Part shown: positions 48,272-60,962 of the stretch, one piece after another
How the letters are laid out: each line of letters starts with the position of its first letter
Position numbering within the stretch: position 1 is the first letter of the stretch
Origin: Oscillospiraceae bacterium
GTDB taxonomy: Bacteria; Bacillota; Clostridia; Oscillospirales; Oscillospiraceae
DNA length: 64,000 bases
NCBI GenBank assembly: GCA_902778665.1
Contig: CACYYN010000005.1
Location: 62,001 to 126,000, forward strand
Direction of reading: 5' to 3'
Program-made: the position numbers and the translations under genes
Notes under the pieces: generated by a model
What the model was told of the DNA's origin: nothing
Database searches by the model: none
What the model saw: only the letters and a program-made list of their open reading frames with translations

Positions 48272-48306
48272 CTACTCCCTATACCCTACTCCCTAATCCC
48301 TATTCC
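48272..48306 (+). repeat. Heptamer array A, CCCTAnT type
   Basis: Five 7-bp units CTACTCC, CTATACC, CTACTCC, CTAATCC, CTATTCC fill the gap between the polymerase stop and the GT2 ribosome-binding site. Confidence 0.85.
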
Positions 48307-48320
48307 CTAAAAGGTGTCTT

Positions 48321-49250
48321 ATGAAACTCTCCATCATCGTCCCGGTCTACAATACAGCCGGCTATATTGACAAATGTGTTCAGTCTCTTCTCTCTCAGCC
48401 GATTCCCGATTATGAAATCATCCTCGTGAATGACGGTTCAGTTGACAGCTCTCTTTCCATCCTTCAGCGATATCTGGATCGTTATCCGGAAAAAATCGAA
48501 ATTATCGATACGGAGAACGGGGGACAGGGCCGTGCCCGCAATCTTGCTTTGGAGTCAGCCCAGGGGGAATATATCGGCTTTGCCGATAGTGATGACTGGG
48601 TGGCTCCTGACATGTTTGCCCGTCTTCTGGCGGCTGCAGAGGCGGAGAATGCCGATATAGCGGTCTGTGATTCCTGGTGTGTCACCGGAGAGGAGCAAAC
48701 CGTACAGCCGGGCCGCCCATATGATAATGATCTTTCTGCTGCCGGCCCTGTGTGGAACAAAATTTTTCGCCGCAGCCTCATAGGGAATATCCGTTTCCCG
48801 GAGGGTGTCTGGTATGAAGATTTTGCCTTCTCTGCCAAGCTGCTCTTCCTCTCGAAGAAGACGGTCTTTCTCTCTGAGCCTCTTTACTATTATCGGGCAT
48901 CTCATCCATCCACCATGCGCAACCAGAATGCCCTGAAAAATCTGGACATTCTCACCGTGATGGATGATGTTGCCGCTTTTGCCGGCGAAGAGAGAAAAGC
49001 GGATATGGAGTTTTATATCATCAATCACATTCTTCTCGATGCCATTCGCCGGGTCAGCATGCAGGACAGCCTGGATAAGAAAAAGGTGATTCAGGCCCTC
49101 CGTTCCTATGTTCAGGAACACATCCCCGACCTGAATTCCTGCAAGGCCTACAGGGGCGAATCCCGAAACCGCCGCATCATCATGAGCCTGAATTATCACG
49201 GCAAAGAAAACATCTCCCGCCTTATCCTCAAAGCCAAAAACTCTCTTTGA
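48321..49250 (+). CDS. Glycosyltransferase family 2
   Basis: A 309-residue GT-A enzyme. The start is LSIIVPVYNTAGYIDKCVQS, the nucleotide site is ILVNDGSVDSS, the metal DxD is FADSDDW and the catalytic base region is VWYEDFAF. Related to, but clearly distinct from, the two GT2 paralogues on the minus strand downstream. AAAGGTG precedes the ATG, directly after a heptamer array. Confidence 0.9.
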   Translation: MKLSIIVPVYNTAGYIDKCVQSLLSQPIPDYEIILVNDGSVDSSLSILQRYLDRYPEKIEIIDTENGGQGRARNLALESAQGEYIGFADSDDWVAPDMFARLLAAAEAENADIAVCDSWCVTGEEQTVQPGRPYDNDLSAAGPVWNKIFRRSLIGNIRFPEGVWYEDFAFSAKLLFLSKKTVFLSEPLYYYRASHPSTMRNQNALKNLDILTVMDDVAAFAGEERKADMEFYIINHILLDAIRRVSMQDSLDKKKVIQALRSYVQEHIPDLNSCKAYRGESRNRRIIMSLNYHGKENISRLILKAKNSL

Positions 49251-49375
49251 CGATCCATTTCCCACTTCTCACTATGGCAAAACACTCAGAAGCGCGGGAT
49301 AGAGATATAGAATCGTGGTATCGTTTTGTCGCCCCGCGCAACCTGCTTTTATCGAATTGCGAAGCACATGATAAT

Positions 49376-49403
49376 AAAAAATAGCCCTTCAGGGCTATTT
49401 TTT
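49376..49403. terminator. Bidirectional terminator between converging GT2 genes
   Basis: AAAAAATAGCCC / GGGCTATTTTTT with a TTCA loop. It overlaps the stop codon of the minus-strand GT2 gene ending at 49395. Confidence 0.9.
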
Positions 49404-50387
49404 TCTTGTCCATTCATTCGCTTTCAGCACTGCGTGCAGCAGAGTATATCTTTTCCCCTTTATGAGGCTGTGCAGCAGCTGATATTTCCTGCCGATCTCC
49501 TGTACATATCTGTTCTTCTCATATTCCGGGAATCTTCTCTTCGTATATTCCAGCAGCTTGATCTGTACGTCGCTTTTCGGGTCAATCAGATTCACACGGT
49601 CCGTCGAGGTCAGCAGCACGTTATAAAAAACCGAATACTCCAGTTCATCCCGATACTGCTCAAAAAGCCCCTCCTTCTCATAGAAGGAGACTACGGACTC
49701 GGCGGCATCAATGATATCCAGGTTTTTCTTCACATTCCTGTTGTGCGTGATGGATGCCGGCTGCTGCCTGTAGTTATACCAGGTTTTCCTCACATACCGT
49801 ATGGATTTGCACTTCGGATAGAGCTTGGGGTTGGTCCAGTAATCCTCAAACCATACACGCCCGGGATACCACACATCCGCCTCTTCAAAGAGCGTTCTGC
49901 GATACAGTTTATTCCAGCGGTTGGCACGTTCAAAAAGCAGCTGCGGGTATTCTTCCAGTGTGAAAACACCTTCCTCTCTTCCGCTGCAGCCCCGTTTTTC
50001 ACAGATCATCTGCCCGTCTTCCGTCACATCGGCGAAATCAAAGATGATCATATCGTCGCCATACCCGCATGCTTCAACCATTTCTTCCACGGCATGTTCT
50101 CTGAATGTGTCATCACTGTCCAGAAACGCGATGTATGCGCCCTTTGCCGCCTCGATTCCGTTGTTGCTTGCCGCACCGAGTCCGCCGTTTTCCGTGTGCA
50201 CCACTCTAACGGTTTCGGGATATTTCTCCCTGTATTCTTCCAGAATCGCTGGCGATGAATCCGTTGATCCGTCATTCACACACACAATCTCATATTCATC
50301 TGTCTTTGCCCCGATTACCGAATCCAGACATTGCCGCAGATATTTTTCCACATTATAAACCGGCACTACAATACTTAATACTGTCAT
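49395..50387 (-). CDS. Glycosyltransferase family 2, tandem paralogue 1
   Basis: A 330-residue GT-A enzyme: LSIVVPVYNVEKYLRQCLDS, CVNDGSTDSS, FLDSDD, and VWFEDYWTNPKLYP. By eye it is about two-thirds identical to the next gene over its full length, including the C-terminal 100 residues outside the GT2 core, so the two are a recent duplication. AAGGAA precedes the ATG. A heptamer array fills the space to its paralogue. Confidence 0.9.
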   Translation of the reverse strand: MTVLSIVVPVYNVEKYLRQCLDSVIGAKTDEYEIVCVNDGSTDSSPAILEEYREKYPETVRVVHTENGGLGAASNNGIEAAKGAYIAFLDSDDTFREHAVEEMVEACGYGDDMIIFDFADVTEDGQMICEKRGCSGREEGVFTLEEYPQLLFERANRWNKLYRRTLFEEADVWYPGRVWFEDYWTNPKLYPKCKSIRYVRKTWYNYRQQPASITHNRNVKKNLDIIDAAESVVSFYEKEGLFEQYRDELEYSVFYNVLLTSTDRVNLIDPKSDVQIKLLEYTKRRFPEYEKNRYVQEIGRKYQLLHSLIKGKRYTLLHAVLKANEWTRKK

Positions 50388-50435
50388 ATTCAGTGTTCCT
50401 TCAAATTAATAATTCTTGTATGAAATACAAACGAT

Positions 50436-50518
50436 GAACCACGAACAACCAACCATCATCTACCAAAAACCTACTACCAACTACTAACTAACAACCACCA
50501 ACTACCAACTACCAACTC
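50436..50518 (+). repeat. Heptamer array B, CTACCAA type
   Basis: A degenerate 7-bp-period array (ACCAACT, ACTACCA, ACTAACA, ACCACCA and similar) spans the intergenic region and touches the stop codon of the second GT2 paralogue at 50517. Confidence 0.8.
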
Positions 50519-51503
50519 ATCTCTTCCTTCTCCCGTTCGCCGTCAGCACCGTATGCAGCAAACCGTACCACCTGTTTTTAATCAGCAGGTGCAGCAGGCG
50601 ATATTTCATTCCCATCTCCCGCACATAGCGGTTCTTCTCATAATCGGGGAATCTGTTCCTCATATACGCCAGCAGCTTTCCCTGCACATCACTCTTCGCG
50701 TTGATCAGGTTCACACGATCGGTAGAAGTCAGCAGCACGTTATAGAAAACCGAGTATTCCAGCTCTTCCCGATATTTCTCAAACAGCCCCTCCTGCTCAT
50801 AATATTGCAACAGTTCTTCTGCTGCATCAATGATCTCCAGGTTTCTTTCCGTGTTCTTTCCGTGTGTGATGGAGTTTTCCTGCTGCCTGTAGTTATACCA
50901 GGTTTTTCCCTCATATCTTATCGATCGGCACAGAGGATAGAGCTTCGGGTTGGTGCGGTAATCCTCAAACCAGACACGGCTTGGATATCGTATATCATGC
51001 TCTTCAAACAGTGCTCTTTTAAAAAGCTTATTCGCTCTGGAAGGGTATTCAAACAGCAGCTGGGGGTAGCTTTCCAGCGTGAAAACACCCTCTTCACGGC
51101 TGCACCCTTTTTTCACTGCGATGAGATTGCCCTGATCATTCACTTCGTTAAAATCAAAAATAATCAGGTCTGCGTCGCTTCTGCAGGCATTCAGCATCTC
51201 TTCTACGGCCCCGGGCACGAGATAGTCATCGCTGTCCAGAAACCCGACATATTCGCCCTTTGCCGCCTTAATCCCGTTGTTGCTTGCCGCACCGAGTCCG
51301 CCGTTAACCGTAGTGATAACCCTAACCAGCTCTGGGTATTTTTCGCTATATTCTTCCAAAATCTTAGCTGATCCGTCTGTCGAGCCGTCGTTTACGCATA
51401 CAATCTCGTATTCATCCGTCCCCGGCACAATCACGGAGTCCAGACACTGCCGCAGATACTTCTCCACATTGTAAACCGGTACTACAACACTCAACCTGAT
51501 CAT
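50517..51503 (-). CDS. Glycosyltransferase family 2, tandem paralogue 2
   Basis: A 328-residue GT-A enzyme with VVVPVYNVEKYLRQCLDS, CVNDGSTDGS, FLDSDDY and VWFEDYRTNPKLYP. Paralogue of the neighbouring gene. It is flanked on both sides by CTACCAA-type heptamer arrays in the same orientation. GAGGGA lies before the ATG. Transcribed from the divergent promoter shared with lepB; its leader runs through two heptamer arrays. Confidence 0.9.
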   Translation of the reverse strand: MIRLSVVVPVYNVEKYLRQCLDSVIVPGTDEYEIVCVNDGSTDGSAKILEEYSEKYPELVRVITTVNGGLGAASNNGIKAAKGEYVGFLDSDDYLVPGAVEEMLNACRSDADLIIFDFNEVNDQGNLIAVKKGCSREEGVFTLESYPQLLFEYPSRANKLFKRALFEEHDIRYPSRVWFEDYRTNPKLYPLCRSIRYEGKTWYNYRQQENSITHGKNTERNLEIIDAAEELLQYYEQEGLFEKYREELEYSVFYNVLLTSTDRVNLINAKSDVQGKLLAYMRNRFPDYEKNRYVREMGMKYRLLHLLIKNRWYGLLHTVLTANGRRKR

Positions 51504-51529
51504 ATCTTAAAATCCCTCAATTATTAATT

Positions 51530-51603
51530 AACCAACTACTACCAACTGCCAACCACCAACTACCAACTACCAACCACCAACTAACAACTACCAACTAACA
51601 ACA
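51530..51603 (+). repeat. Heptamer array C1, CTACCAA type
   Basis: About ten units around CAACTAC/CAACCAC/CAACTAA with clear 7-bp phase, upstream of the second GT2 paralogue. Confidence 0.85.
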
Positions 51604-51608
51604 GGCGG

Positions 51609-51638
51609 TAATTTATCATTTAACATTTATAATTTTTT
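51609..51638 (+). repeat. Heptamer array C2, ATTTATM type
   Basis: TAATTTATC-ATTTAAC-ATTTATA-ATTTTTT, directly joined to array C1 with five bases between; two unit families side by side. Confidence 0.75.
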
Positions 51639-51643
51639 AAAGC

Positions 51644-51691
51644 TTTACAAAATTCCGAATTAATTATATAATAACCAATTGTATTGTGCAA
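51644..51691. promoter_or_regulatory. Symmetric divergent promoter for lepB and the GT2 pair
   Basis: The palindrome ATTATATAAT (51663-51672) gives TATAAT on both strands. Plus strand: TTTACA at 51644-51649, spacer 17. Minus strand: TTGCAC at 51691-51686, spacer 17. The lepB leader then has a GTGCA-A-GGA / TCC-TGCAC hairpin. Confidence 0.75.
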
Positions 51692-51737
51692 GGATGACTT
51701 CCTGCACTTCAAGTTTATTATAACATGGTGAAACTGC

Positions 51738-52286
51738 ATGAGCAAAGAAGAATTAATCGCAAAAAATAATAAAAGCACCTACGAGTGGATTCAGTGCCTC
51801 ATCGTCGCCCTGGCAGTCTGCGTCGTCATCTTTCTGTTCTTTTTCCGTGTGATTGACGTTAAGGGCACATCCATGGTTCCCACTCTGCGTGATGCTGACA
51901 AAATGCTGGTCTCCGGCCTGTTCTATAAGCCTAAGCAGGGTGATATCGTCGTTTTCAAAAAGGACGAGTATAATCCGAGCAAGGCTCTTGTCAAGCGTGT
52001 CATTGCCACCGAGGGTCAGGTAATTAATATGGACTTTGAAAACGGCGTCGTCTATGTGGACGGTGAACCGCTGGAAGAAGACTATATTGCCGATCTCACC
52101 CGCACCAAGCTGGACTTTATCGGGCCTCAGACCGTTCCGGAAGGCTGTGTTTTCTGCATGGGCGATAATCGCAACATGTCCACTGACAGCCGCAAAAAGG
52201 AAATCGGCATGATCGACTCCCGTCTTATCCTCGGCAAGGTCTACATGGTGATCTTCCCGGTGGATTCCTTCGGCTCTGTTTACTGA
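51738..52286 (+). CDS. lepB: Signal peptidase I
   Basis: A 182-residue type I signal peptidase with one N-terminal membrane segment (about 18-37). Catalytic Ser45 is in VKGTSMVPTL, the Lys86 general base in ALVKRVIATEG, and box E is MGDNRNMSTDSR. It cleaves exported preproteins outside the membrane. It overlaps rbgA by one base. In firmicutes it normally follows rplS directly. Confidence 0.95.
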   Translation: MSKEELIAKNNKSTYEWIQCLIVALAVCVVIFLFFFRVIDVKGTSMVPTLRDADKMLVSGLFYKPKQGDIVVFKKDEYNPSKALVKRVIATEGQVINMDFENGVVYVDGEPLEEDYIADLTRTKLDFIGPQTVPEGCVFCMGDNRNMSTDSRKKEIGMIDSRLILGKVYMVIFPVDSFGSVY

Positions 52287-53173
52287 TGGCGGAAACTTCT
52301 TACGAAAAACTGAATATCCAGTGGTATCCCGGGCATATGACCAAAGCCCGCCGCATGATCGAGGAGAACATTTCTCTTGTCGATGCGGTGTGCGAGGTTC
52401 TCGATGCCCGGATTCCCTCTGCCAGCGCCAACCCGGATATCCGGCGTCTTTCGGCAGGCAAACCCCATCTGGTCATTTTGAACCGGTGTGATCTTGCCGA
52501 CCCTACCGTCACACCCCTCTGGCGATCGGCCTTTGAATCGGCAGGTGTTTCCGTGCTGGAAACGGACGCCCGTTCCGGCAAAGGGGTCAATACCTTTGTG
52601 CCTGCGGTTCGTCAGCTTCTTGCTGATAAGCTCCGTGCTTATGAGGAGAAGGGGCAGGTCGGCCGCCCGCTTCGTATTATGATTCTCGGCATTCCCAATG
52701 TGGGCAAGTCTACCCTCATCAATAAAATTGCCGGACGCAAGGCAGCCATCGCCTCCGACAGGCCTGGCGTCACCCGCGGCAAGCAATGGATCAGCCTTTC
52801 CACCGGTCTTGATCTGCTGGATACCCCGGGCATCCTATGGCCAAAGTTTGAAAGCCAGGAGGTGGGGGAGCTTCTCGCTGTTACCAACGCCATCAAAACC
52901 GAAGTTTTCGATATCGAGACTCTTGCCGCCAATTTTATGCTCCGTCTTCGTGATCTCTATCCCTCCGCTCTCGAGACCCGCTATAAAATATCCCCATCCC
53001 CAACGCTCACCGGGTTTGACCTTCTCGAACAATCCGCTCTCAAACGCGGCTTTCTCATCTCCCGTGGCGAGGCCGATCTCACCCGTATGGCTACCACCCT
53101 CCTCAAGGAATACCACGAGGGTAAACTCGGCCGCCTGACCCTCGAACGCCCCAACTCCGCTGCAGACGACTAA
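52286..53173 (+). CDS. rbgA: Ribosome biogenesis GTPase RbgA (YlqF)
   Basis: A 295-residue circularly permuted GTPase needed for late 50S assembly. G4 comes first (NRCD at 66-69, where NKxD is usual), then G1 GIPNVGKST near 135, G2 region RPGVTRGKQW and G3 DTPG. The N-terminal IQWYPGHMTKARRMI is diagnostic. Its stop codon lies in a heptamer-repeat region. Confidence 0.95.
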   Translation: MAETSYEKLNIQWYPGHMTKARRMIEENISLVDAVCEVLDARIPSASANPDIRRLSAGKPHLVILNRCDLADPTVTPLWRSAFESAGVSVLETDARSGKGVNTFVPAVRQLLADKLRAYEEKGQVGRPLRIMILGIPNVGKSTLINKIAGRKAAIASDRPGVTRGKQWISLSTGLDLLDTPGILWPKFESQEVGELLAVTNAIKTEVFDIETLAANFMLRLRDLYPSALETRYKISPSPTLTGFDLLEQSALKRGFLISRGEADLTRMATTLLKEYHEGKLGRLTLERPNSAADD

Positions 53174-53224
53174 TTTATATATAATTTACAGCGACTAATT
53201 TATCATTTATAATTTATAATTTTT
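53168..53224 (+). repeat. Heptamer array D, ATTTATM type
   Basis: GACTAATTTAT occurs twice (53168 and 53193); the second copy leads into ATC-ATTTATA-ATTTATA-ATTTTT ending at the rnhB ATG. The first copy contains the rbgA stop codon. Confidence 0.85.
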
Positions 53225-53824
53225 ATGGATTTGTGGCAACTCGAAAACTCAATATACGCCTCCTCCGGTGCTTCCTATATTGCCGGTGTGGATGAGGCCG
53301 GCCGAGGCCCGCTGGCGGGTCCTGTCTGTGCCGCAGCCTGTATCCTGCCCCGAAATCTGGAGATTCCCGGCCTGAACGACTCAAAAAAACTCTCCTCTAA
53401 AGCACGCGATTTGCTCTATGACATAATAATCAATTCTGCGGTCTCCTATGGCATCGCCTTTGCAACCGTCGAGGAGATTGAGTCTCTCAATATCCTCAAC
53501 GCCACCTTCCTCGCCATGAATCGGGCCCTTTCTCAGCTTTCTCCGCAGCCGGCGCTCGCTCTCATTGACGGTAACCGTAATTCGGGCATCAGCATTCCCT
53601 CCCGCTGCGTCGTGAAAGGGGACTCCCTCTGTGCCGATATTGCTGCGGCGTCTGTTCTTGCCAAAGTCACCAGAGACAGGTATATGCTCACCATGGCGGA
53701 GCAGTATCCGGAGTACGGTTTCGAAAAGCACAAGGGCTACGGTACCGCTCAGCACTACGCTGCCCTCAGGGAGTTCGGCCCCAGCCCCATCCATCGTCCG
53801 AGCTTCCTTCGAAAAATGCACTGA
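53225..53824 (+). CDS. rnhB: Ribonuclease HII
   Basis: A 199-residue RNase H-fold nuclease removing ribonucleotides from DNA hybrids. Asp23-Glu24 are in GVDEAGRGPLAGPV, the third acid in LALIDGN and the fourth in ADIAAASVLAKVTRDR. There is no Shine-Dalgarno sequence: the AT-rich heptamer array runs right up to the ATG. Confidence 0.95.
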   Translation: MDLWQLENSIYASSGASYIAGVDEAGRGPLAGPVCAAACILPRNLEIPGLNDSKKLSSKARDLLYDIIINSAVSYGIAFATVEEIESLNILNATFLAMNRALSQLSPQPALALIDGNRNSGISIPSRCVVKGDSLCADIAAASVLAKVTRDRYMLTMAEQYPEYGFEKHKGYGTAQHYAALREFGPSPIHRPSFLRKMH

Positions 53825-53829
53825 ATATC

Positions 53830-54189
53830 ATGGATAAAAATGATCTCGGATCCTTCGGCGAAGACGCCGCTGCAGCCTTTCTCAAGCAGAAAGGCTATCT
53901 TGTTATCGAGCGTAATTTTTCCTGCCGTCAGGGCGAAATTGATATTATTGCTTCGGAAGGGGAGTACCTGGCCTTTGTCGAGGTGAAGCTCCGTAAAGAT
54001 GCTTCCCACGGTGAAGCCCGTGAGTTCGTCACCCGTGCCAAGCAGAAAAGGGTTATCCTCGCCGCCCGCTACTGGCTTTCCCGAAACCCTTCCGATCTTC
54101 AGCCACGTTTTGACGTGGTCGAGATCTATGCCCCCTCCGGCCCTCAGGGCAAACTTTACTTCCGTCTGATCCGTGATGCATTCTATTAG
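53830..54189 (+). CDS. yraN: YraN family (UPF0102) putative endonuclease
   Basis: A 119-residue Holliday-junction-resolvase-fold protein: GEDAAAAFLKQKGYLVIERNF, GEIDIIASEGEYLAFVEVK (the PD-(D/E)xK-like core EID...VEVK) and the C-terminal RFDVVEIY. It follows rnhB by five bases, the usual pairing. Confidence 0.93.
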   Translation: MDKNDLGSFGEDAAAAFLKQKGYLVIERNFSCRQGEIDIIASEGEYLAFVEVKLRKDASHGEAREFVTRAKQKRVILAARYWLSRNPSDLQPRFDVVEIYAPSGPQGKLYFRLIRDAFY

Positions 54190-54206
54190 TCATAAAAGGT
54201 GATCTG

Positions 54207-54578
54207 ATGAACGATAACCAAATAGAAGAAAAAAGCTTCAGTTTTGCAGTCCGTATTGTGAATCTCTATAAATACCTTCTTGAATCTCAGAAAGAATACA
54301 CTCTTTCAAAACAACTCCTGCGTTGCGGAACAAGTATTGGTGCAAATGTTGCAGAAGCTCAGCATGCTCAGAGTCGTCCTGATTTTCTTGCAAAGATGAA
54401 AATAGCATCAAAAGAGGCAAGTGAAACGCAATACTGGTTAAAACTCCTGTATAAAACAGAATTTCTTACTGAGTCACAATATAACAGTCTGCGTACAGAC
54501 ATAGATGAAATAGCCTCAATCCTTGTCTCAATCTGTAAAACACTTCAGACTCAACAACAGAAACAACCACGTAAGTAA
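54207..54578 (+). CDS. S23/four-helix-bundle protein (23S rRNA IVP family)
   Basis: A 123-residue protein with the family core: FAVRIVNLYKYL, LSKQLLRCGTSIGANVAEAQ and FLAKMKIASKEASETQYWL. Members are often encoded in intervening sequences of 23S rRNA or scattered as mobile accessory genes. This copy has AT-richer codon use than rnhB and yraN beside it, suggesting acquisition. AAGGTG precedes the ATG. Function unknown; proposed RNA or protein scaffold. Confidence 0.88.
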   Translation: MNDNQIEEKSFSFAVRIVNLYKYLLESQKEYTLSKQLLRCGTSIGANVAEAQHAQSRPDFLAKMKIASKEASETQYWLKLLYKTEFLTESQYNSLRTDIDEIASILVSICKTLQTQQQKQPRK

Positions 54579-54587
54579 CATTAACCA

Positions 54588-54621
54588 ATTAATCATTTAT
54601 CATTTATAATTTATAATTTTA
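54588..54621 (+). repeat. Heptamer array E, ATTTATM type
   Basis: AATTAATC-ATTTATC-ATTTATA-ATTTATA-ATTTT between the S23-type gene and the phosphoesterase ATG; again no ribosome-binding site follows. Confidence 0.85.
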
Positions 54622-54627
54622 ATTATC

Positions 54628-55329
54628 ATGAGTTTGTTTGCAATCGGCGATCTCCACCTTTCTTTTTCTGTCAATAAACCGATGTCAGTCTTCGGCCCTC
54701 TGTGGCATAATCATCCGGAGAAACTGCAGTCCGGCTTTTCTTCTCTCACTCCCGATGACACCTGCATTCTCTGCGGCGACCTCAGCTGGGGCATGAATCT
54801 GGAGGAGTCTGTTGCGGATTTCGCTTTTATTCACAGCCTGCCGGGAAAGAAAATCATCCTCAAGGGGAACCACGATTACTGGTGGACCACCGCCTCAAAA
54901 CTCAATTCGTTCTTTTCATCCAATAACTTTACATCTCTTTCTCTTCTCCACAATAACTTCATTCCCTATGGGGACTATGCCATCTGCGGCACACGCGGCT
55001 GGTTTTATGAGGAGGAAACCGGCTCTCCCCATGATAAAAAACTTCTGGATCGTGAGGTCCTTCGTCTTCAAACCTCACTCTCCGCTGCCGGTGACAGGAA
55101 AAAACTCGTCTTTCTCCACTATCCTCCTATCACCAAAAACTACCACTGTGAAGAAATCCTCTCTCTCCTCAAATCGTTCAATGTCCGCCTCTGCTGCTAT
55201 GGCCATCTCCATGCAAAAAGCTGCACCTTTGCCTATAACGGCTGGCATGACGGCACCTACTTTCGCCTCGTCTCTGCTGACTATCTCAACTTCACCCCCC
55301 TCAATCTTGACGGTTTTCTCTATTCCTGA
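54628..55329 (+). CDS. Calcineurin-like metallophosphoesterase
   Basis: A 233-residue enzyme with the full dinuclear metal set: GDLHLS (Asp8, His10), CGDLSWG, KGNHDYWW, HYPP and YGHLHA. The cytoplasmic YkuE/Ser-Thr-phosphatase-like fold has broad possible substrates; none is assigned. The start has no Shine-Dalgarno sequence and abuts array E. A long terminator hairpin follows. Confidence 0.9.
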   Translation: MSLFAIGDLHLSFSVNKPMSVFGPLWHNHPEKLQSGFSSLTPDDTCILCGDLSWGMNLEESVADFAFIHSLPGKKIILKGNHDYWWTTASKLNSFFSSNNFTSLSLLHNNFIPYGDYAICGTRGWFYEEETGSPHDKKLLDREVLRLQTSLSAAGDRKKLVFLHYPPITKNYHCEEILSLLKSFNVRLCCYGHLHAKSCTFAYNGWHDGTYFRLVSADYLNFTPLNLDGFLYS

Positions 55330-55403
55330 TATCCACTCCGTCACCGAACCCTTTCTTTAAAACGAGAATGAGTTGTCTCAAAACAACTTTCCTCCAAACA
55401 GTC

Positions 55404-55448
55404 AAAAAATACCGGATGTTCTCTAAATGAGAAAATCCGGTATTTTTT
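55404..55448. terminator. Long bidirectional terminator
   Basis: AAAAAATACCGGAT / ATCCGGTATTTTTT outer stem, TTCTC/GAGAA inner stem and TAAAT loop, between the converging phosphoesterase and Rpn-type nuclease genes. Confidence 0.92.
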
Positions 55449-55500
55449 AAACATTTAGTTGAGTTGGCCTGAGTTTTAGACAGCTTCGCGATTAGCTTTT

Positions 55501-56316
55501 TTAAGTCACTTGTAACGGTTTAACAGTCTTTAAAAACTCTTCGAGAGTCATTCCTGCTTCTTCCGCTGCTTCTGAGGGGGTAATTCTGCCTTTCTCAATT
55601 AAACTTACCAGTGTGTTAAGAACACCTTTTAATTCGCCCTCTTTACGGGTTTCTTCAAATGCTTTACACATAATTTCAACTCCTTTCGGATCTTCTTTAT
55701 AATATTTGGTTGCTTCTTTCAAAAGCGCAAAATTCATATCATCAGCATTGCTGCACGAGAAATCATGCATTAACCTTCCAATATCAGAATCGTCTCTGAA
55801 AGCACCATTTACATAAAGAATATGGCTACCGTCCTCAAAGGTTTCACCGGTGTTCATGATGATTCGTTCTATAGGATAAACAGCAAAACCTTTGCGTAGG
55901 ACATCGTTCTCAGTAATAAAAATCACATATGTGTCCGGAAGTTCATCAAAATCCTGACCGACGTTCAGGTTTTCCACATCCATGGAACTTGAATGATATC
56001 TTGCTCTGTGTCTTCCAGCTCCATAATCGGAGCGTTGAATTTCCAGATCAATTATACGGCCTGAAGAGTCAGTGGCATATGCATCAAGACAGACTGAACG
56101 GGCCCCTCCCAAACGTTTCATATCACGTTGAGTTTCCAATGATGTAATCACAAGATCAGGCTTTCCGGTGACGATCCGCAGTATCAATTGTGAAAGCGGA
56201 ATGTTATCCCGAAGAATACAGCGAAGAAAATCATCATCTATAGGTCGTAGACCTCTTAGTTTAGCAAGATCCGATTGTCGTTCGCGTAGCTTTATCTTTT
56301 CTAGGTTCTCAGTCAT
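55501..56316 (-). CDS. Rpn-type PD-(D/E)XK nuclease / putative transposase
   Basis: A 271-residue protein of the PD-(D/E)xK nuclease-transposase family. The core is CLDAYATDSSGRIIDLEIQR with Asp78 and Glu92-x-Gln94. The preceding FLRCILRDNIPLSQLILRIV and following RARYHSSSMDVENL are typical. The C-terminal 60 residues form the usual helical tail with GMTLEEF. Rpn proteins promote recombination-like DNA changes and are spread as multicopy accessory genes; no terminal inverted repeats or target duplication were seen here, so it is not a complete insertion sequence. Confidence 0.85.
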   Translation of the reverse strand: MTENLEKIKLRERQSDLAKLRGLRPIDDDFLRCILRDNIPLSQLILRIVTGKPDLVITSLETQRDMKRLGGARSVCLDAYATDSSGRIIDLEIQRSDYGAGRHRARYHSSSMDVENLNVGQDFDELPDTYVIFITENDVLRKGFAVYPIERIIMNTGETFEDGSHILYVNGAFRDDSDIGRLMHDFSCSNADDMNFALLKEATKYYKEDPKGVEIMCKAFEETRKEGELKGVLNTLVSLIEKGRITPSEAAEEAGMTLEEFLKTVKPLQVT

Positions 56317-56359
56317 ACAATCACATCCGTAATGCAGAATTTTTGATTTTCTATATCAT

Positions 56360-56388
56360 ATTTTATGATATTTCAAGTTTGAATTCAA
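56360..56388 (-). promoter_or_regulatory. Promoter and possible operator of the Rpn-type gene
   Basis: Minus-strand TTGAAT, 17-base spacer, TAAAAT. The -10 lies in the inverted repeat ATATCATA-TTT-TATGATAT (56353-56371). The rest of the gene-free interval 56389-56538 is AT-rich and shows no recognised element. Confidence 0.55.
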
Positions 56389-56538
56389 GCATAAAATGTT
56401 AAAAAAGAGAAGAATATAGCTATCTGTTTATCATCTCTCTCTCATCGTCTGCTCTGTCCTTGCCATCATTTTGGTTCTCATTTTGCGCAAAATACACAAA
56501 AAATAACGGTGAGGAAACATTGAAATTTCAAAATTATG

Positions 56539-56567
56539 TTGACTTGGTTACAAAACGGTGGTATAAT
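56539..56567 (+). promoter_or_regulatory. Strong promoter of the YD-motif secreted protein gene
   Basis: TTGACT, 17-base spacer, perfect TATAAT. The predicted 155-base leader begins with a GAAAG/CTTTC hairpin and then consists almost wholly of heptamer array F. Confidence 0.8.
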
Positions 56568-56609
56568 ACGCTCGTATAAGCTGAAAGCAGTACTTTCAAT
56601 CCGCTAAAA

Positions 56610-56711
56610 ACCACCAACCACTAACTTAAAAACCACCAACTACCAACTATCAACTACCAACCATCAACTATCAACTACCAACCATCAACTACCAACTACT
56701 AACTACCAACT
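56610..56711 (+). repeat. Heptamer array F, CTACCAA type
   Basis: The longest array: about fourteen units such as CTACCAA, CTATCAA, CCATCAA and CTACTAA in 7-bp phase, inside the predicted 5' untranslated region, ending eight bases before a GGAGCG ribosome-binding site. Confidence 0.9.
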
Positions 56712-56728
56712 TCCTTCGGAGCGAAACT

Positions 56729-57520
56729 ATGAAAACCAAACTTTCTGCCCTTATATTCCTTGTGTTTATCGGGCTTTTTAGTGTCGGTCATCCCGTTTAT
56801 GCCGAAATCACCTATTATAGCGATCCGCTTCAGCCTCCCGTGTCCTCTTATCAGTATGATGAGCTGGGCAGGGTAGAGGCCGTCACCACCGAGTCTGTTT
56901 TTGATGACGGAACACGCATGGTCACCGTTACCATCATGGATCCGGTTCTTCAGCTTCCTCTATCGGAAGATACCGTCATCTCGTCTCTCGACGGCTCCCG
57001 CGAGACCATCAACATCACCTATACGCGTGATATGTTCGGCACTATCCTCTCTCAGTCAACCGTCACGATAGGGCGGGACGGCTCAGAGCTCAAAGATATC
57101 ATCACCAATAACAGCTACGGCAGCAATACCTACCGCAAAACCGAGGCGTATGACCCATTCGGCACCCTTATGATGAGGGAAGAGACCTGTTACGTCTATA
57201 ATGCAGACAACGTTCTTCTAAGTTCCAGGCAGAATTCCTTCCAGCAGAACGGGCATGACATCACCACTGTCATCACCTATGACGCCACCGGTGAAAATCC
57301 CGTTGAGATGACCACCGACTATTCCCTGGCCGACGGCTCCACCGGCACCTCCACACAGGTTTACCCGCTTGATGCAAATGTTGCTGATTCTTCAGAAGAG
57401 AATTCCCAACAGCTTGAATCTACTATCCCAACTCCTCCTGAAGCATCTCCTGCCGAAACTCCATCCGATCTCTCAGCCTCCGTCCTGCCTTCCGAAAGCA
57501 CCACTCCCATTGAAGGCTGA
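56729..57520 (+). CDS. Secreted protein with degenerate YD (RHS-like) motifs
   Basis: A 263-residue exported protein. Signal peptide 1-25 ends VYA-E. The mature part has several short segments of YD type, the clearest being YQYDELGRVEAVTTE, followed by YDPFGTLM, YVYNADNVLLSSR and ITYDATGENPVE. They are spaced about 40-60 residues, wider than in RHS toxins. The last 50 residues are a Ser/Pro/Glu/Thr-rich tail with no sortase motif or membrane anchor. No toxin domain. It could be a wall-associated beta-rich protein; the family is not recognised. Confidence 0.7.
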   Translation: MKTKLSALIFLVFIGLFSVGHPVYAEITYYSDPLQPPVSSYQYDELGRVEAVTTESVFDDGTRMVTVTIMDPVLQLPLSEDTVISSLDGSRETINITYTRDMFGTILSQSTVTIGRDGSELKDIITNNSYGSNTYRKTEAYDPFGTLMMREETCYVYNADNVLLSSRQNSFQQNGHDITTVITYDATGENPVEMTTDYSLADGSTGTSTQVYPLDANVADSSEENSQQLESTIPTPPEASPAETPSDLSASVLPSESTTPIEG

Positions 57521-57548
57521 CACATCCATCCTTTCAAACTCATAAAAC

Positions 57549-57587
57549 GAAAGCACTCATTTTCTTTACGAAAACGAGTGCTTTTTT
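57549..57587 (+). terminator. Terminator after the YD-motif protein
   Basis: AAAGCACTC-A-TTTTC / GAAAA-C-GAGTGCTTT stem with one mismatch and a T run after it. A second hairpin GTGAGGC/GCCTCAC followed by TTTT at 57649-57670 lies within the converging gene's 3' end. Confidence 0.85.
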
Positions 57588-57621
57588 CAGTTGATCATTC
57601 GGTCGGACTTACAATATCTTG

Positions 57622-57651
57622 TTCCCTATGCCCTATTCCCTGATCCCTGTG
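57622..57651 (+). repeat. Heptamer array G, CCCTAnT type, overlapping a gene end
   Basis: TTCCCTA-TGCCCTA-TTCCCTG-ATCCCTG. Read on the minus strand it encodes the last residues (GSGNRA) and the TAG stop of the co-polymerase gene ending at 57626. Confidence 0.8.
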
Positions 57652-59170
57652 AGGCTTTAGCCTCACTTTTCCTGCTCCTGATCAACCCGACCATGCAAAC
57701 CATAAATCCAACTGCGCAAAGCGGTCCGGCACACTTGATCACCTGCTTGATAAACGCACCGGAAAATACCTTCGGCGTATCATATTTGTAGTTAAAGATG
57801 TTGACGGTTATCTCATTCAGCTCCTGCTCATTATATGCCTTGAGCAGGGCGTCAAATTCTTCTGCAATCTTTGTCTGCTTGGCAATCAGGTTTTCAAAGC
57901 TGCTCTCCAGCACGGTCTTCTGCCTTGCGGTCAGCTTTTCGGCTGCTGCTGCGGCTTCGGCAATCTCTTCTTCCGTCAGCTCATCTATGGTCGCTTCTGC
58001 TGCTGTTTCCGCCGCTTCAACCACAGCTGCGTCGGTCTCCGTCTCTTCCGCTTCCTCGGCATCAACAACTGCTGCGGGTGCTGCATTGCTCTGTGTCAAA
58101 GCAATCGCGTTTTCTGCACCCTTCATCAGGTCAGCAAGCTTCAGCTGATAGGTTGTTATTCTGCTGTTGATCTGGGTGATCTCATCCGAAACGTCTTTTC
58201 TGTCTGCCACAAGTGCATCATAAGTCTCGGAGGAGTTCCCGTCAATCTTCGTCAGGGAATCTGCCGTGCTCAGATAAATAATCTCGTTCTTGTCATAAGA
58301 AGCAATCAGCTCGTCCAGTCTCTTCAGCCGTTCCTGCTGTCTGGAAAGCTGGTTGTTCAAATCGCGAATTTCAAACTGATACTGGGTCAGCAGTCTTGCC
58401 GTGTCCCGTGTCAGGGCGTTGATTGTGATGTTGGAGTTTAATCTTGCAACCTCGCCCTCAATCAGGCTGTTCAACTGCACGTAGATGTCGTTAAAGCCCT
58501 TTCCGCCCACCATGAAGAAGGGTTCTTTCGTGTGCATCTCCTGAGCATACCGTGTCTGCTGCGTCATGCTCTGCTGCAGAATCTCCAGCAGCTGGGAATA
58601 GTCATATCCTTCAAAATCAACACCCAGCCCCTGCAGATAGTTCATTGCATAAGAGTACCGGCTTGTAAAATCCTTCCGGAAGCACTCCATAATGTTCCGC
58701 ATCAGTTCCGTCAGCTTCTCAGCCGAAAGGGCAGGGGTGAATCCGTTCTCCAATGTCACACGGAAAAGCGTCGGGTGGAAATTGCTCAGGTTCAGCGTCC
58801 TGTTCCCGGTGAAGTCCAGCAGGCTGTCATAACTTGTCATCTGCTCCACCAGGTCGTCCGGATATACGCCCGACACGGTCAGGTTCGCTCTTACCTGTTC
58901 CGCCGTGCAGCTGCCCTCCAGCCCGGCTTCCGCCAATGCTTCCGTCAACACGTCATCGGAGCTTATTGCGTCCATCGTCAGGGGTATGCCGTTAGGTCCG
59001 TATCCCTCGGCCGCCCCGTCAAACGAGAACTGTACCGAAGCCGCAATCGTGGTTTTTCCCCGTTCCACCTTGAAAAACAGAACAGAGGCCAGTATAACGC
59101 CGATGATTCCGCAAATAATCATCACAATCAGCGTGTTGCGAAACCAGTGTGTCTTCTTTGCTGTATTCAT
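57626..59170 (-). CDS. Wzz-like polysaccharide co-polymerase, second subunit
   Basis: A 514-residue membrane protein: an N-terminal membrane segment (about 12-33), a large extracellular region with a long coiled coil (about 255-465), and a second membrane segment near 478-498. This two-TM layout is that of chain-length determinant proteins (Wzz/PCP). A 50-residue Ala/Glu/Thr-rich insert (about 355-405) interrupts the coil. No kinase domain or tyrosine tail is present. It overlaps the upstream paralogue by four bases if that gene stops at 59167. The C-terminal tail KSEAKASQGSGNRA is encoded by a hairpin plus heptamer array G, so the original end was probably replaced. Confidence 0.8.
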   Translation of the reverse strand: MNTAKKTHWFRNTLIVMIICGIIGVILASVLFFKVERGKTTIAASVQFSFDGAAEGYGPNGIPLTMDAISSDDVLTEALAEAGLEGSCTAEQVRANLTVSGVYPDDLVEQMTSYDSLLDFTGNRTLNLSNFHPTLFRVTLENGFTPALSAEKLTELMRNIMECFRKDFTSRYSYAMNYLQGLGVDFEGYDYSQLLEILQQSMTQQTRYAQEMHTKEPFFMVGGKGFNDIYVQLNSLIEGEVARLNSNITINALTRDTARLLTQYQFEIRDLNNQLSRQQERLKRLDELIASYDKNEIIYLSTADSLTKIDGNSSETYDALVADRKDVSDEITQINSRITTYQLKLADLMKGAENAIALTQSNAAPAAVVDAEEAEETETDAAVVEAAETAAEATIDELTEEEIAEAAAAAEKLTARQKTVLESSFENLIAKQTKIAEEFDALLKAYNEQELNEITVNIFNYKYDTPKVFSGAFIKQVIKCAGPLCAVGFMVCMVGLIRSRKSEAKASQGSGNRA

Positions 59171-60780
59171 GCGTTGGCAGCCTCCTTTCCGTTGCTTTTT
59201 CTCTTTGTGTCTTCTTCACCGATAAACTCCGGTGCCAGTGCACTCAGGAACCACAGTCCTATTGCGACCACCGCTCCGGCCGCCGCTCCGATCGCCATTC
59301 CCTTGGCCGTAGCCGCCAGGAAGCTTCTGCTCTTTCCGTATGCTGCGCTGGCACTGATATAGTTTTTCACCTGCGGGCTCTCCAGCATCTCTTCCATGTG
59401 GGCGTTGATGTTCTGATAGATGTTCTCTACCAGCGTCACCGCCGTCTTCAGCTCTTCCTCCGCCTGTGCCAGGCGGACTTCTTCTTCCTCGCCTGCATCC
59501 GCCTGAGCCGTCAGGCTTGCTATTTTGTCCTGCAGGTCGGCAATCGTGGTTTCCAGCTCGGCTGCATCGGCATAGTAGTCTGCCTGCTGCAGAATCAGCT
59601 CGTTGTAATAGTCCGTCGTGGTTCTTGTGGATTTGGATGTGTCGCTCTCCTGCATCGAGACGAAAATTTCATCATTCTTGTAGTTGTCCAGTATCGACTT
59701 CACGGTTGCAATGTCGTTGTTCAGCACATCCAGCCTTGTCTCGGCGTTTCTCAGCTGATACTGGTAGTTGGTTATCATCGAGGCCTTGTCTCTCACAATG
59801 CTGTTGGTGTATGCGTAGGAGTAGAGATAATCCACGTTCACATCCCGGGCCGTCTGCAGAATCTCCATCCAGTCGTTCAGCGTGCTTCCTGTCTTCCAGG
59901 AGCGGTATGTCTTCACACTGTCTGGCATCTTGTCGCAGTAGTCATACAGGTTGTCCACCGCCGTCCTGATCAGGTCCAGGCTCTCCAGCAGGTCCAGATT
60001 CTCCGTGTCTATGGCGGAAAACTCTTCCGCCGGCAGCTGAATCTGGGTGTATGTCCGGAAGAGATATTCGTTGTAAGCACTGAGCACCCTGTCAAGTATG
60101 GTCCTCAGTTCTGCATCCTTCAAAAAATACTTAACCCGTGATTCCTCTTCGCCGAAGCCGTTTGTCAGTGTCACCACAAACTTGTTTTCATACTTCAGCT
60201 CAATGTTCTGCACTTCGCTGTAGGCTCCGCTGGTTTTCTGGTCCACCATGCTGGATGCCACTTCCTGCTGTCGTCTGCTGTCCTCGGTGAGAATTCTCGT
60301 TATTTTAATGTTGTCTCTCAGGTTCTTCAGCGATACCGGCTTGCTCAGCGTCATACCGCTTACTGCATTCTGCAGCACGTAGGAGGATGTAATCTGGTTT
60401 AAATCCAGCGGCTTTCCGTCCGGCGCCGTCAGATCCGTAACCGGCACCATCTCTTCCACGCCGTTGCTACCTGCGGTTCTGTTCCCGGCAGGGCTGTTTG
60501 AGGTGGTTTCATCCGGATTCGGCACATCATACTGCAGCGTCACAACGGAAGATACCGTCAGCGGGTCCTTCGTGAACTGATACATCAGCAGGGGAGCACA
60601 CAGGCCGATCACCACACATAGCACCAGCACCCAGGCATAAACCCGCTTCTTTTTCTTAAAGTTCCTGAAAACCCTCCCCAGATCAATGGAGTCATCCTCC
60701 CACCCCGGGCTGTTTACAACTACTTCTATCTTTGAGTCCTTATCAATAGCCAACGCAGTGTTATTTTCTTTGTTGTCCAA
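59167..60780 (-). CDS. Wzz-like polysaccharide co-polymerase, first subunit
   Basis: A 537-residue membrane protein with the Wzz-domain start IDLGRVFRNFKKKKRVYAWV, a membrane segment following, an extracellular domain, coiled-coil stretches (about 320-440) and a C-terminal membrane segment near 495-520 (GMAIGAAAGAVVAIGLWFLS). No ATPase domain. TTG at 60780 is preferred because GGGAGGAG lies six bases ahead; the ATG at 60798 lacks a site. It probably pairs with the next gene to set glycan chain length. Confidence 0.82.
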   Translation of the reverse strand: MDNKENNTALAIDKDSKIEVVVNSPGWEDDSIDLGRVFRNFKKKKRVYAWVLVLCVVIGLCAPLLMYQFTKDPLTVSSVVTLQYDVPNPDETTSNSPAGNRTAGSNGVEEMVPVTDLTAPDGKPLDLNQITSSYVLQNAVSGMTLSKPVSLKNLRDNIKITRILTEDSRRQQEVASSMVDQKTSGAYSEVQNIELKYENKFVVTLTNGFGEEESRVKYFLKDAELRTILDRVLSAYNEYLFRTYTQIQLPAEEFSAIDTENLDLLESLDLIRTAVDNLYDYCDKMPDSVKTYRSWKTGSTLNDWMEILQTARDVNVDYLYSYAYTNSIVRDKASMITNYQYQLRNAETRLDVLNNDIATVKSILDNYKNDEIFVSMQESDTSKSTRTTTDYYNELILQQADYYADAAELETTIADLQDKIASLTAQADAGEEEEVRLAQAEEELKTAVTLVENIYQNINAHMEEMLESPQVKNYISASAAYGKSRSFLAATAKGMAIGAAAGAVVAIGLWFLSALAPEFIGEEDTKRKSNGKEAANA

Positions 60781-60820
60781 ATCCTGCTCCTCCCTCATAT
60801 TAAAAGCTCGTCAGAGTGTA

Positions 60821-60854
60821 AACTAACAACTAATAACTAACAACTCATAACTAA
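60821..60854 (+). repeat. Heptamer array H, ACTAACA type
   Basis: ACTAACA-ACTAATA-ACTAACA-ACTCATA-ACTAA in strict 7-bp phase, between the co-polymerase promoter and its start codon, hence in the 5' untranslated region. A variant of the CTACCAA family. Confidence 0.85.
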
Positions 60855-60857
60855 TTT

Positions 60858-60886
60858 AGTATACTTTTTCCGCCTCTCTCTGTCAA
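60858..60886 (-). promoter_or_regulatory. Promoter of the co-polymerase operon
   Basis: Minus-strand perfect TTGACA, 17-base spacer, TATACT. The transcript begins just before array H. Confidence 0.85.
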
Positions 60887-60928
60887 GCAAAATGTACTTT
60901 CAGGCATCCTCCTCCCCATAATCTGAAC

Positions 60929-60962
60929 TAATTTATCATTTATAATTCATAACTTATAATTT
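60929..60962 (+). repeat. Heptamer array I, ATTTATM type
   Basis: CTAATTTATC-ATTTATA-ATTCATA-ACTTATA-ATTT between the two divergent glycan promoters. Confidence 0.8.

Follow-up and report, generated by a model that had tools for sequence, protein, structure and literature searches.

Tandem heptamer arrays accompany S23/IVP (PF05635) genes: a putative mobile-element-like system in Oscillospiraceae and beyond

Results

Heptamer arrays and an S23/IVP gene in the window

We analysed a stretch of 64,000 nucleotides (the window) from an Oscillospiraceae bacterium, assembly GCA_902778665.1, contig CACYYN010000005.1, positions 62,001 to 126,000 (C5:62001-126000 of genome G000; 2.73 Mb in 79 contigs, 84% complete). 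Between 48.27 and 60.96 kb of the window lie ten tandem arrays with a period of 7 bp, as assessed by Tandem Repeats Finder (TRF) and an autocorrelation scan, together with a gene of the S23/IVP family (PF05635), the only match to this family in the assembly. An earlier note, made from the letters of the window alone, had listed ten such arrays, and all of them were found: TRF detected nine, and the tenth, absent from the TRF list, was recovered by autocorrelation and as match C5:119624 of a genome search for the unit CCCTANT. The S23/IVP gene sits between two arrays of unit ATTTATM, the nearer of which begins 9 bp past its 3' end, and between yraN and a metallophosphoesterase-like gene (mpe); it thus lies outside 23S rRNA, and the position expected of a 23S intervening sequence (IVS) does not apply to it.

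The note had also seen no arrays in the first 48 kb, and autocorrelation likewise gave no period-7 array at a score of at least 10 within 1-48 kb; a few TRF rows of 2-3 copies there (9975, 14126, 33885) are taken as chance. At a score of at least 13, period 7 was represented by seven segments of the window, while periods 4-6, 8-13 and 15-20 had none; the matches at periods 14 and 21 were multiples of 7, except one period-21 segment at 14.7 kb, and 30 first-order Markov copies of the window yielded no period-6, -7 or -8 segment at this score. With the score set to at least 12, seven arrays were counted in the window, all in 48-61 kb, whereas a 400-kb sample drawn from 20 contigs of this genome held three; the clustering is therefore genuine, and the density is not equal over the genome. 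In the 464 kb scanned, period 7 accounted for nine segments at a score of at least 13, against one each for periods 5 and 6 and none for period 8; period 15 gave three, and there were also multiples of 7. The confinement of the arrays to a half of the window rich in glycan genes holds as a cluster but not as an association with such genes, since the neighbours also include lepB, ylqF/rnhB and the S23/IVP gene in the window, a gene read from its translation as murB (flanked by arrays on contig C3), and elsewhere dnaG, rnhB and others.

Pattern searches of the whole assembly, with adjacent matches merged by hand, gave 11 AACTACC arrays (3 in the window), about 19 CCCTANT arrays (8 at C3:79-105 kb, 2 in the window) and 4 clear ATTTATM arrays, each of which lies in the window and within 7 kb of the S23/IVP gene, plus one ATTTATM match with 3 mismatches at C5:44879. 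A search of 39 other genomes, including 24 congeners, gave no AACTACC array at up to 2 mismatches. The closest homologues of ylqF in named genomes belonged to Clostridiales and Oscillospiraceae assemblies, many of them ruminant-derived; 80 ylqF-homologue loci from named genomes (1.3 Mb) contained four period-7 arrays at a score of at least 13, and because periods 6, 9, 12 and 15 were equally frequent or more so, an excess of period 7 is not universal.

Arrays beside S23/IVP genes in other genomes and plasmids

PF05635 was present in 29 of the 61 genus genomes searched, and 50 of the 55 matches were used, five weaker ones being left out. Period-7 arrays scoring at least 11 within 1.5 kb on either side were found at 22 of the first 30 genus loci, compared to 1 of 30 rnhB control loci, and this single positive control was the window itself. 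An array stood within 400 bp of the gene at 32 of the 50 genus loci and on both sides at 22, and at each of these 22 two-sided loci the paired arrays matched better when one was inverted (6-7 of 7 bases) than when both were read directly (2-6); permutation gave a mean of 4.4 and a maximum of 5.1. A search of the phylum found PF05635 in 78 of 398 genomes, and among the best 30 loci 19 had an array within 250 bp of the gene, 9 of them on both sides. For plasmids (all 30 PF05635 plasmid records found, one place each) the figures were 25 and 21, and the 25 array-bearing loci came from Cyanobacteriota, Bacteroidota, Spirochaetota and Chloroflexota; at the sole Bacillota plasmid (Monoglobus), which fell below the score threshold, only degenerate heptamers were seen by eye. 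Two phage records carried PF05635.

Array density within 250 bp of the gene exceeded that farther away by 57-fold in the genus, 13-fold in the phylum set and 25-fold on plasmids, and other periods were near-absent at the phylum and plasmid loci. The arrays also had a preferred length: beside the genus genes 29 of 57 were of five units and 21 of 57 measured 31-32 nt, 17 of 49 plasmid arrays were 31-33 nt, and the phylum arrays formed a broader peak (four units in 11 of 32, five units in 8 of 32). Nostoc, Anabaena and Planktothrix were among the hosts of plasmids whose S23/IVP genes carry period-7 arrays, with the unit AATCCCC on three Planktothrix plasmids.

Filled sites, empty sites and forms without a reading frame

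The order lepB-ylqF-rnhB-yraN-mpe was kept in 20 of 20 congener stretches, and none of the 20 had an S23/IVP match at yraN/mpe. When the window was aligned with the two genomes chosen as closest (G020 and G073), the S23/IVP gene with its array, the ylqF/rnhB array and the block upstream of lepB all appeared as extra DNA in the window species. Inspection by eye showed that at rnhB and mpe the array occupies the place of an AGAAGG- or AGGAGG-like stretch in G020. The idea that a place at rnhB is conserved for an array while its unit changes was dropped, as the 20 congener stretches (380 kb) held a single array scoring at least 11, and this was not at rnhB.

A second site was the junction of dnaG with a gene end read as dgt; among the 59 genomes in which dnaG was matched, 30 were classified here by eye from 150 bp. 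Six junctions held an S23/IVP gene with inverted arrays; three (G021, G045, G074) held inverted arrays surrounding two hairpins and no open reading frame (ORF); 12 were short and array-free; and nine held other, hairpin-rich repeats (L287, L289, L295, L296, L300, L301, L306, L308, L312), for which reason the junction looks like an insertion hot spot. Closely related species differed here in their unit, being AACTACG in G006 and G055 versus CACTAAG/CACTACG in G051. Terminal inverted repeats and ORF-less forms, which are traits of transposable elements and miniature inverted-repeat transposable elements, thus occur in congeners and not in the window copy.

Unit, protein and dispersed copies

The heptamer units varied by lineage and correlated with S23/IVP protein similarity (Mantel r 0.48, p 2e-4, n=32 array-bearing loci, proteins with an internal stop or shorter than 95 aa left out), a correlation that is not fully independent because related and same-genome loci were included. 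The note's suggestion that one period with different units points to one mechanism gains support from these data; its further suggestion, of a mechanism copying whatever heptamer is present, conflicts with units that follow the S23/IVP clade and with pairs that are inverted copies.

Dispersed arrays often, though not always, share the unit of the resident S23/IVP gene. Counting as abundant those genomes with at least 10 matches, a threshold chosen after the counts were known and applied to counts that take in gene-adjacent arrays and overlapping matches, MACTANN was abundant in 9 of the 10 genomes that carry a TAG-type gene and in 2 of the remaining 51 (Fisher p 3e-8), GGAGTKT in all 3 genomes carrying the gene and in one (G072) of the remaining 58, and AATTCGG in 2 of 3 with the gene and also in 5 of 58 where none was detected, a weak link. 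The last could be explained by incomplete assembly, gene loss or action in trans. For ATTTATM, G000 has the array at the gene plus further copies, and most but not all congener cases share the repeat with the gene.

A hairpin-interrupted form

The S23/IVP protein tree also contains a group without tandem arrays. At most array-free loci, as first seen by eye, a motif of 6-7 nt upstream of the gene is repeated several times and then inverted, its copies being spaced by small hairpins (L214-L218, L221, L227, L230, L231, L234, L236-L239). Blind scoring for hairpin-interrupted inverted motifs then brought 13 of the 18 array-free loci to level 2, as against 113 of 2339 control windows; 5 of the 18 loci and 1 of the 2339 windows reached level 3. 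In Nostoc UHCC 0870 (L319) the CAATTCG unit of related plasmids is broken up by hairpin-like sequence (by eye), which ties the tandem and interrupted forms together. By eye, several of the hairpin-spaced loci directly follow the end of a tRNA gene.

The S23/IVP protein

The window protein was modelled by single-sequence AlphaFold2 as a four-helix bundle (pLDDT, the model's confidence score, 89). Foldseek returned entries 2rld (58% identity) and 2gsc first, each with five chains, followed by the protein Avd of diversity-generating retroelements (4dwl, E 0.08, TM-score 0.70/0.80; also 8ub7). Homology of Avd and PF05635 is stated in PMC10053308, and the S23 protein of X. campestris is described as a toroidal homopentamer (Warrier 2016, PMC4990558); the window protein is probably a pentameric ring as well. 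The array-associated gene matched PF05635 alone and not RAYT (the transposase associated with repetitive extragenic palindromic, REP, sequences), no RAYT search of the genome being made, and the ten window ORFs scanned against Pfam gave no reverse transcriptase match, in a scan not aimed at reverse transcriptases.

Discussion

A proposed S23/IVP-heptamer system

We consider it reasonably probable that the arrays belong to a family of small mobile-element-like units, resembling REP/RAYT, in which an S23/IVP gene and heptamers act together. In its full form such a unit would consist of one S23/IVP gene (PF05635, Avd-like fold) with a heptamer array on each side, the two inverted relative to each other and mostly of about five heptamers (31-33 nt). 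Derived forms would be inverted pairs that lack an ORF and arrays standing alone, many of them where two genes meet. The window would then hold a one-sided copy (the gene at 54207-54578 with the array at 54587) amid solo arrays, and the 48-61 kb cluster would represent the surroundings of this gene. The suggestion of a ring reading heptamers in single-stranded form comes from four features taken together: the arrays count about five repeats, the protein ring is probably five-fold, its fold resembles that of a protein from a retroelement, and there is a hairpin form. In such a model the S23/IVP ring would bind the array as single-stranded nucleic acid with roughly one heptamer per subunit; unit length and number would follow from the ring, and the protein of each lineage would fix its own unit. 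The hairpins of the second form would leave the motif alone unpaired. The bound array might then be copied or inserted at new sites, with some local preference, by host or other enzymes; because PF05635 has no known catalytic site, these would have to come from the host or another element. Gene association and insertion are observed here, whereas binding and mobility are inferred.

Besides the limits given with the Mantel and dispersal figures, several observations weigh against this proposal. Since no catalytic site is known to us in PF05635, the proposal lacks a copying enzyme, and the likeness to Avd is weak at E 0.08. Neither the yraN/mpe alignment nor the dgt/dnaG junctions showed a target-site duplication or clean ends, and the window gene has an adjacent array (within 400 bp) on its 3' side alone. 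Period-7 arrays were lacking near the gene at 18 of 50 genus, 11 of 30 phylum and 5 of 30 plasmid loci, and among the 21 two-sided plasmid loci the inverted reading gave the better match at 14 and the direct reading at 6 (Anabaena, Treponema, three Planktothrix and one Chlorohelix), with 1 tie. Period-8 arrays lie beside S23/IVP genes at L252 (by scan) and at L232 and L333 (by eye), so that seven is strongly preferred and not obligatory. Two MACTANN-rich genomes, G000 and G062, lack a TAG-type gene, and G000 contains AACTACC and CCCTANT arrays with no S23/IVP gene of those units.

Alternatives

The S23/IVP protein could instead be a post-transcriptional regulator, with the arrays as RNA-binding sites that are autoregulatory at its own gene and, where dispersed, mark targets in leaders and operon gaps; new sites would arise by slippage, gene conversion and selection and not by transposition. 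The placing of arrays just before start codons, where at rnhB and mpe they replace the Shine-Dalgarno stretch, agrees with this, as do the translational role proposed for TAACTGA repeats (MacGregor 2015, PMC4679880) and a fold held in common with Avd, the protein of a retroelement that uses RNA. It is nonetheless unlikely, in our judgement, as whole gene-plus-array units have been gained at sites empty in congeners, ORF-less inverted forms occur at the dgt/dnaG junction, and the array-bearing genes seen here have no common function.

We regard as very improbable that these are plain microsatellites, expanded from any heptamer in tolerant intergenic DNA by a polymerase favouring 7-nt slippage, with the S23/IVP link incidental. 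Heptamers are over-represented in many bacterial genomes (Mrazek, via MacGregor 2015, PMC4679880), and long arrays, of 227 and 385 bp, do exist beside S23/IVP genes; slippage would, however, leave without a reason the inverted agreement of the pairs at the two-sided genus loci, the raised density near the S23/IVP gene, the preference for about five units in place of a falling length distribution, and the use of one unit at many unlinked sites within a genome. We think it very unlikely that an ordinary transposase moves the arrays with S23/IVP as its passenger, although the window has a PDDEXK_2 gene (55501-56316) with arrays about 0.9 kb and 0.3 kb away and integrases or other transposases are near several plasmid loci: over several phyla the constant partner is PF05635 while the other neighbours vary, and the space between the arrays of the 22 two-sided genus loci is filled by the S23/IVP gene.

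Relation to known systems

Short tandemly repeated repetitive (STRR) sequences are heptamers of filamentous cyanobacteria, with units CCCCRAT and others. The window repeats resemble them as intergenic 7-bp tandem units, and differ in the units themselves and in the host, a relative of Oscillospiraceae; the note's comparison with STRR proved a good lead, given the array-bearing genes on cyanobacterial plasmids. Related descriptions are the GGGAATC arrays of X. campestris, mostly of four units, GGGGA(C/T)T in Nostoc and three Calothrix heptanucleotides (Rehm 2015, PMC4692102), and the TAACTGA repeats of Beggiatoaceae, for which a repeat-binding protein was guessed to be a mobile element (MacGregor 2015, PMC4679880). 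STRR, GGGAATC, GGGGA(C/T)T and TAACTGA have in common with the present arrays a period of 7, a mostly intergenic place and units fixed by lineage. The passages on GGGAATC and TAACTGA in these works (PMC4692102, PMC4679880) name no S23/IVP gene; we examined the S23/IVP company of such arrays on plasmids only.

In the IVS of Coxiella 23S rRNA, inverted terminal repeats enclose an S23/IVP ORF that is directly preceded by 2-3 tandem heptamers and a variant copy, their number depending on the strain; unlike the window gene between yraN and mpe, this IVS is embedded in 23S rRNA, from which RNase III excises it, and the account of these heptamers in Warrier 2016 (PMC4990558) does not generalise them. 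REP/REPIN-RAYT systems (REPINs being their miniature inverted forms) share a gene with adjacent repeats, dispersed miniature inverted forms and repeat-gene co-evolution (Bertels and Rainey 2011, PMC3116915), but consist of a RAYT tyrosine transposase and palindromic REPs where we find a four-helix bundle and heptamer arrays. The Avd of 4dwl and 8ub7 resembles the window protein in its four-helix-bundle fold; Avd itself partners a reverse transcriptase and template/variable repeats. The trp RNA-binding attenuation protein (TRAP) is a ring that reads evenly spaced single-stranded RNA repeats, one per subunit, with 11 subunits and triplets separated by 2-3-nt spacers; it is unrelated to S23/IVP and served as a model for the ring idea by analogy only.

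Heptamer repeats have no accepted cause in the separate bacterial groups that carry them, and S23/IVP is widespread, of unknown function and known mainly from 23S rRNA insertions. Linking the two gives each its missing half and makes both testable by one binding assay, and the ring, if true, would explain the period of seven. The heptamers of the Coxiella IVS, STRR, GGGAATC and TAACTGA may belong with the S23/IVP system and have one common cause. A more far-reaching version, which we offer tentatively and somewhat doubt, is that S23/IVP is the missing partner of bacterial heptamer repeats: an Avd-like, non-enzymatic pentameric ring would read a single-stranded array, one heptamer per subunit, and drive the spread of the repeats, their length being set by protein geometry; the Coxiella, cyanobacterial STRR, Xanthomonas GGGAATC, TAACTGA and window arrays would be one kind of selfish element, and hairpin-interrupted arrays the same element with its spacers looped out. 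We found no paper linking S23/IVP or four-helix-bundle proteins with heptamer, tandem or inverted repeats, in a search that lay outside most subscription journals, and the link may be in print.

Features of the window and minor observations

Table 1. Period-7 arrays and associated genes of the window (positions are those of the window).
Feature	Position	Strand	Setting	Detected by
CCCTANT array	48272-48311	+	precedes family 2 glycosyltransferase (GT2) gene 48321-49250	TRF, CCCTANT search
AACTACC array	50444-50517	+	separates two minus-strand GT2 genes	TRF, scan
AACTACC array	51530-51602	+	upstream of minus-strand GT2 gene 50517-51503; absent in G020, G073	TRF (51530/51538), scan, alignment
ATTTATM array	51611-51635	+	upstream of lepB; absent in G020, G073	TRF, alignment
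ATTTATM array	53196-53222	+	ylqF/rnhB gap; these genes nearly abut in G020, G073	TRF, alignment
S23/IVP gene (PF05635)	54207-54578	+		Pfam, E 4.7e-30, 104.4 bits (cut-off 33.8)
ATTTATM array	54587-54624	+	directly 3' of S23/IVP gene, before metallophosphoesterase-like gene at 54628; absent in G020, G073	TRF, alignment
PD-(D/E)XK (PDDEXK_2) transposase-family gene	55501-56316		in the middle of the array cluster	
AACTACC array, longest of the window	56609-56711	+		TRF (56609/56631), scan
CCCTANT array, weak (score 10)	57624-57649	+		pattern search, autocorrelation
AACTACC-type array (AACTAAC)	60821-60854	+		TRF, scan
ATTTATM array, degenerate	60929-60962	+		TRF, pattern search, autocorrelation

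The units of the window give TAG or TAA on one strand and, because seven is not a multiple of three, stops in all frames; the idea that the arrays serve as three-frame stops does not hold as a rule, as units of other lineages are stop-free (AATTCGG, GGAGTTT, CAATGCG).

On cyanobacterial plasmids (L276, L279, L329), the Monoglobus plasmid (L282) and Planktothrix plasmids (L323-L324) the S23/IVP genes lie in or beside defence operons, the settings being between cas2 and cas1, beside cas1, between hsdS and hsdR, and between drmD and a methyltransferase or MmeI-type gene. In the window, two adjacent minus-strand GT2 genes (49395-51503) are similar in sequence and each is preceded by an AACTACC array, an arrangement that looks like joint duplication of gene and array. 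Just past the window, the DNA of C5:126001-135063 (L173) has a G+C content of 0.32 versus about 0.53 within the window and is possibly foreign.

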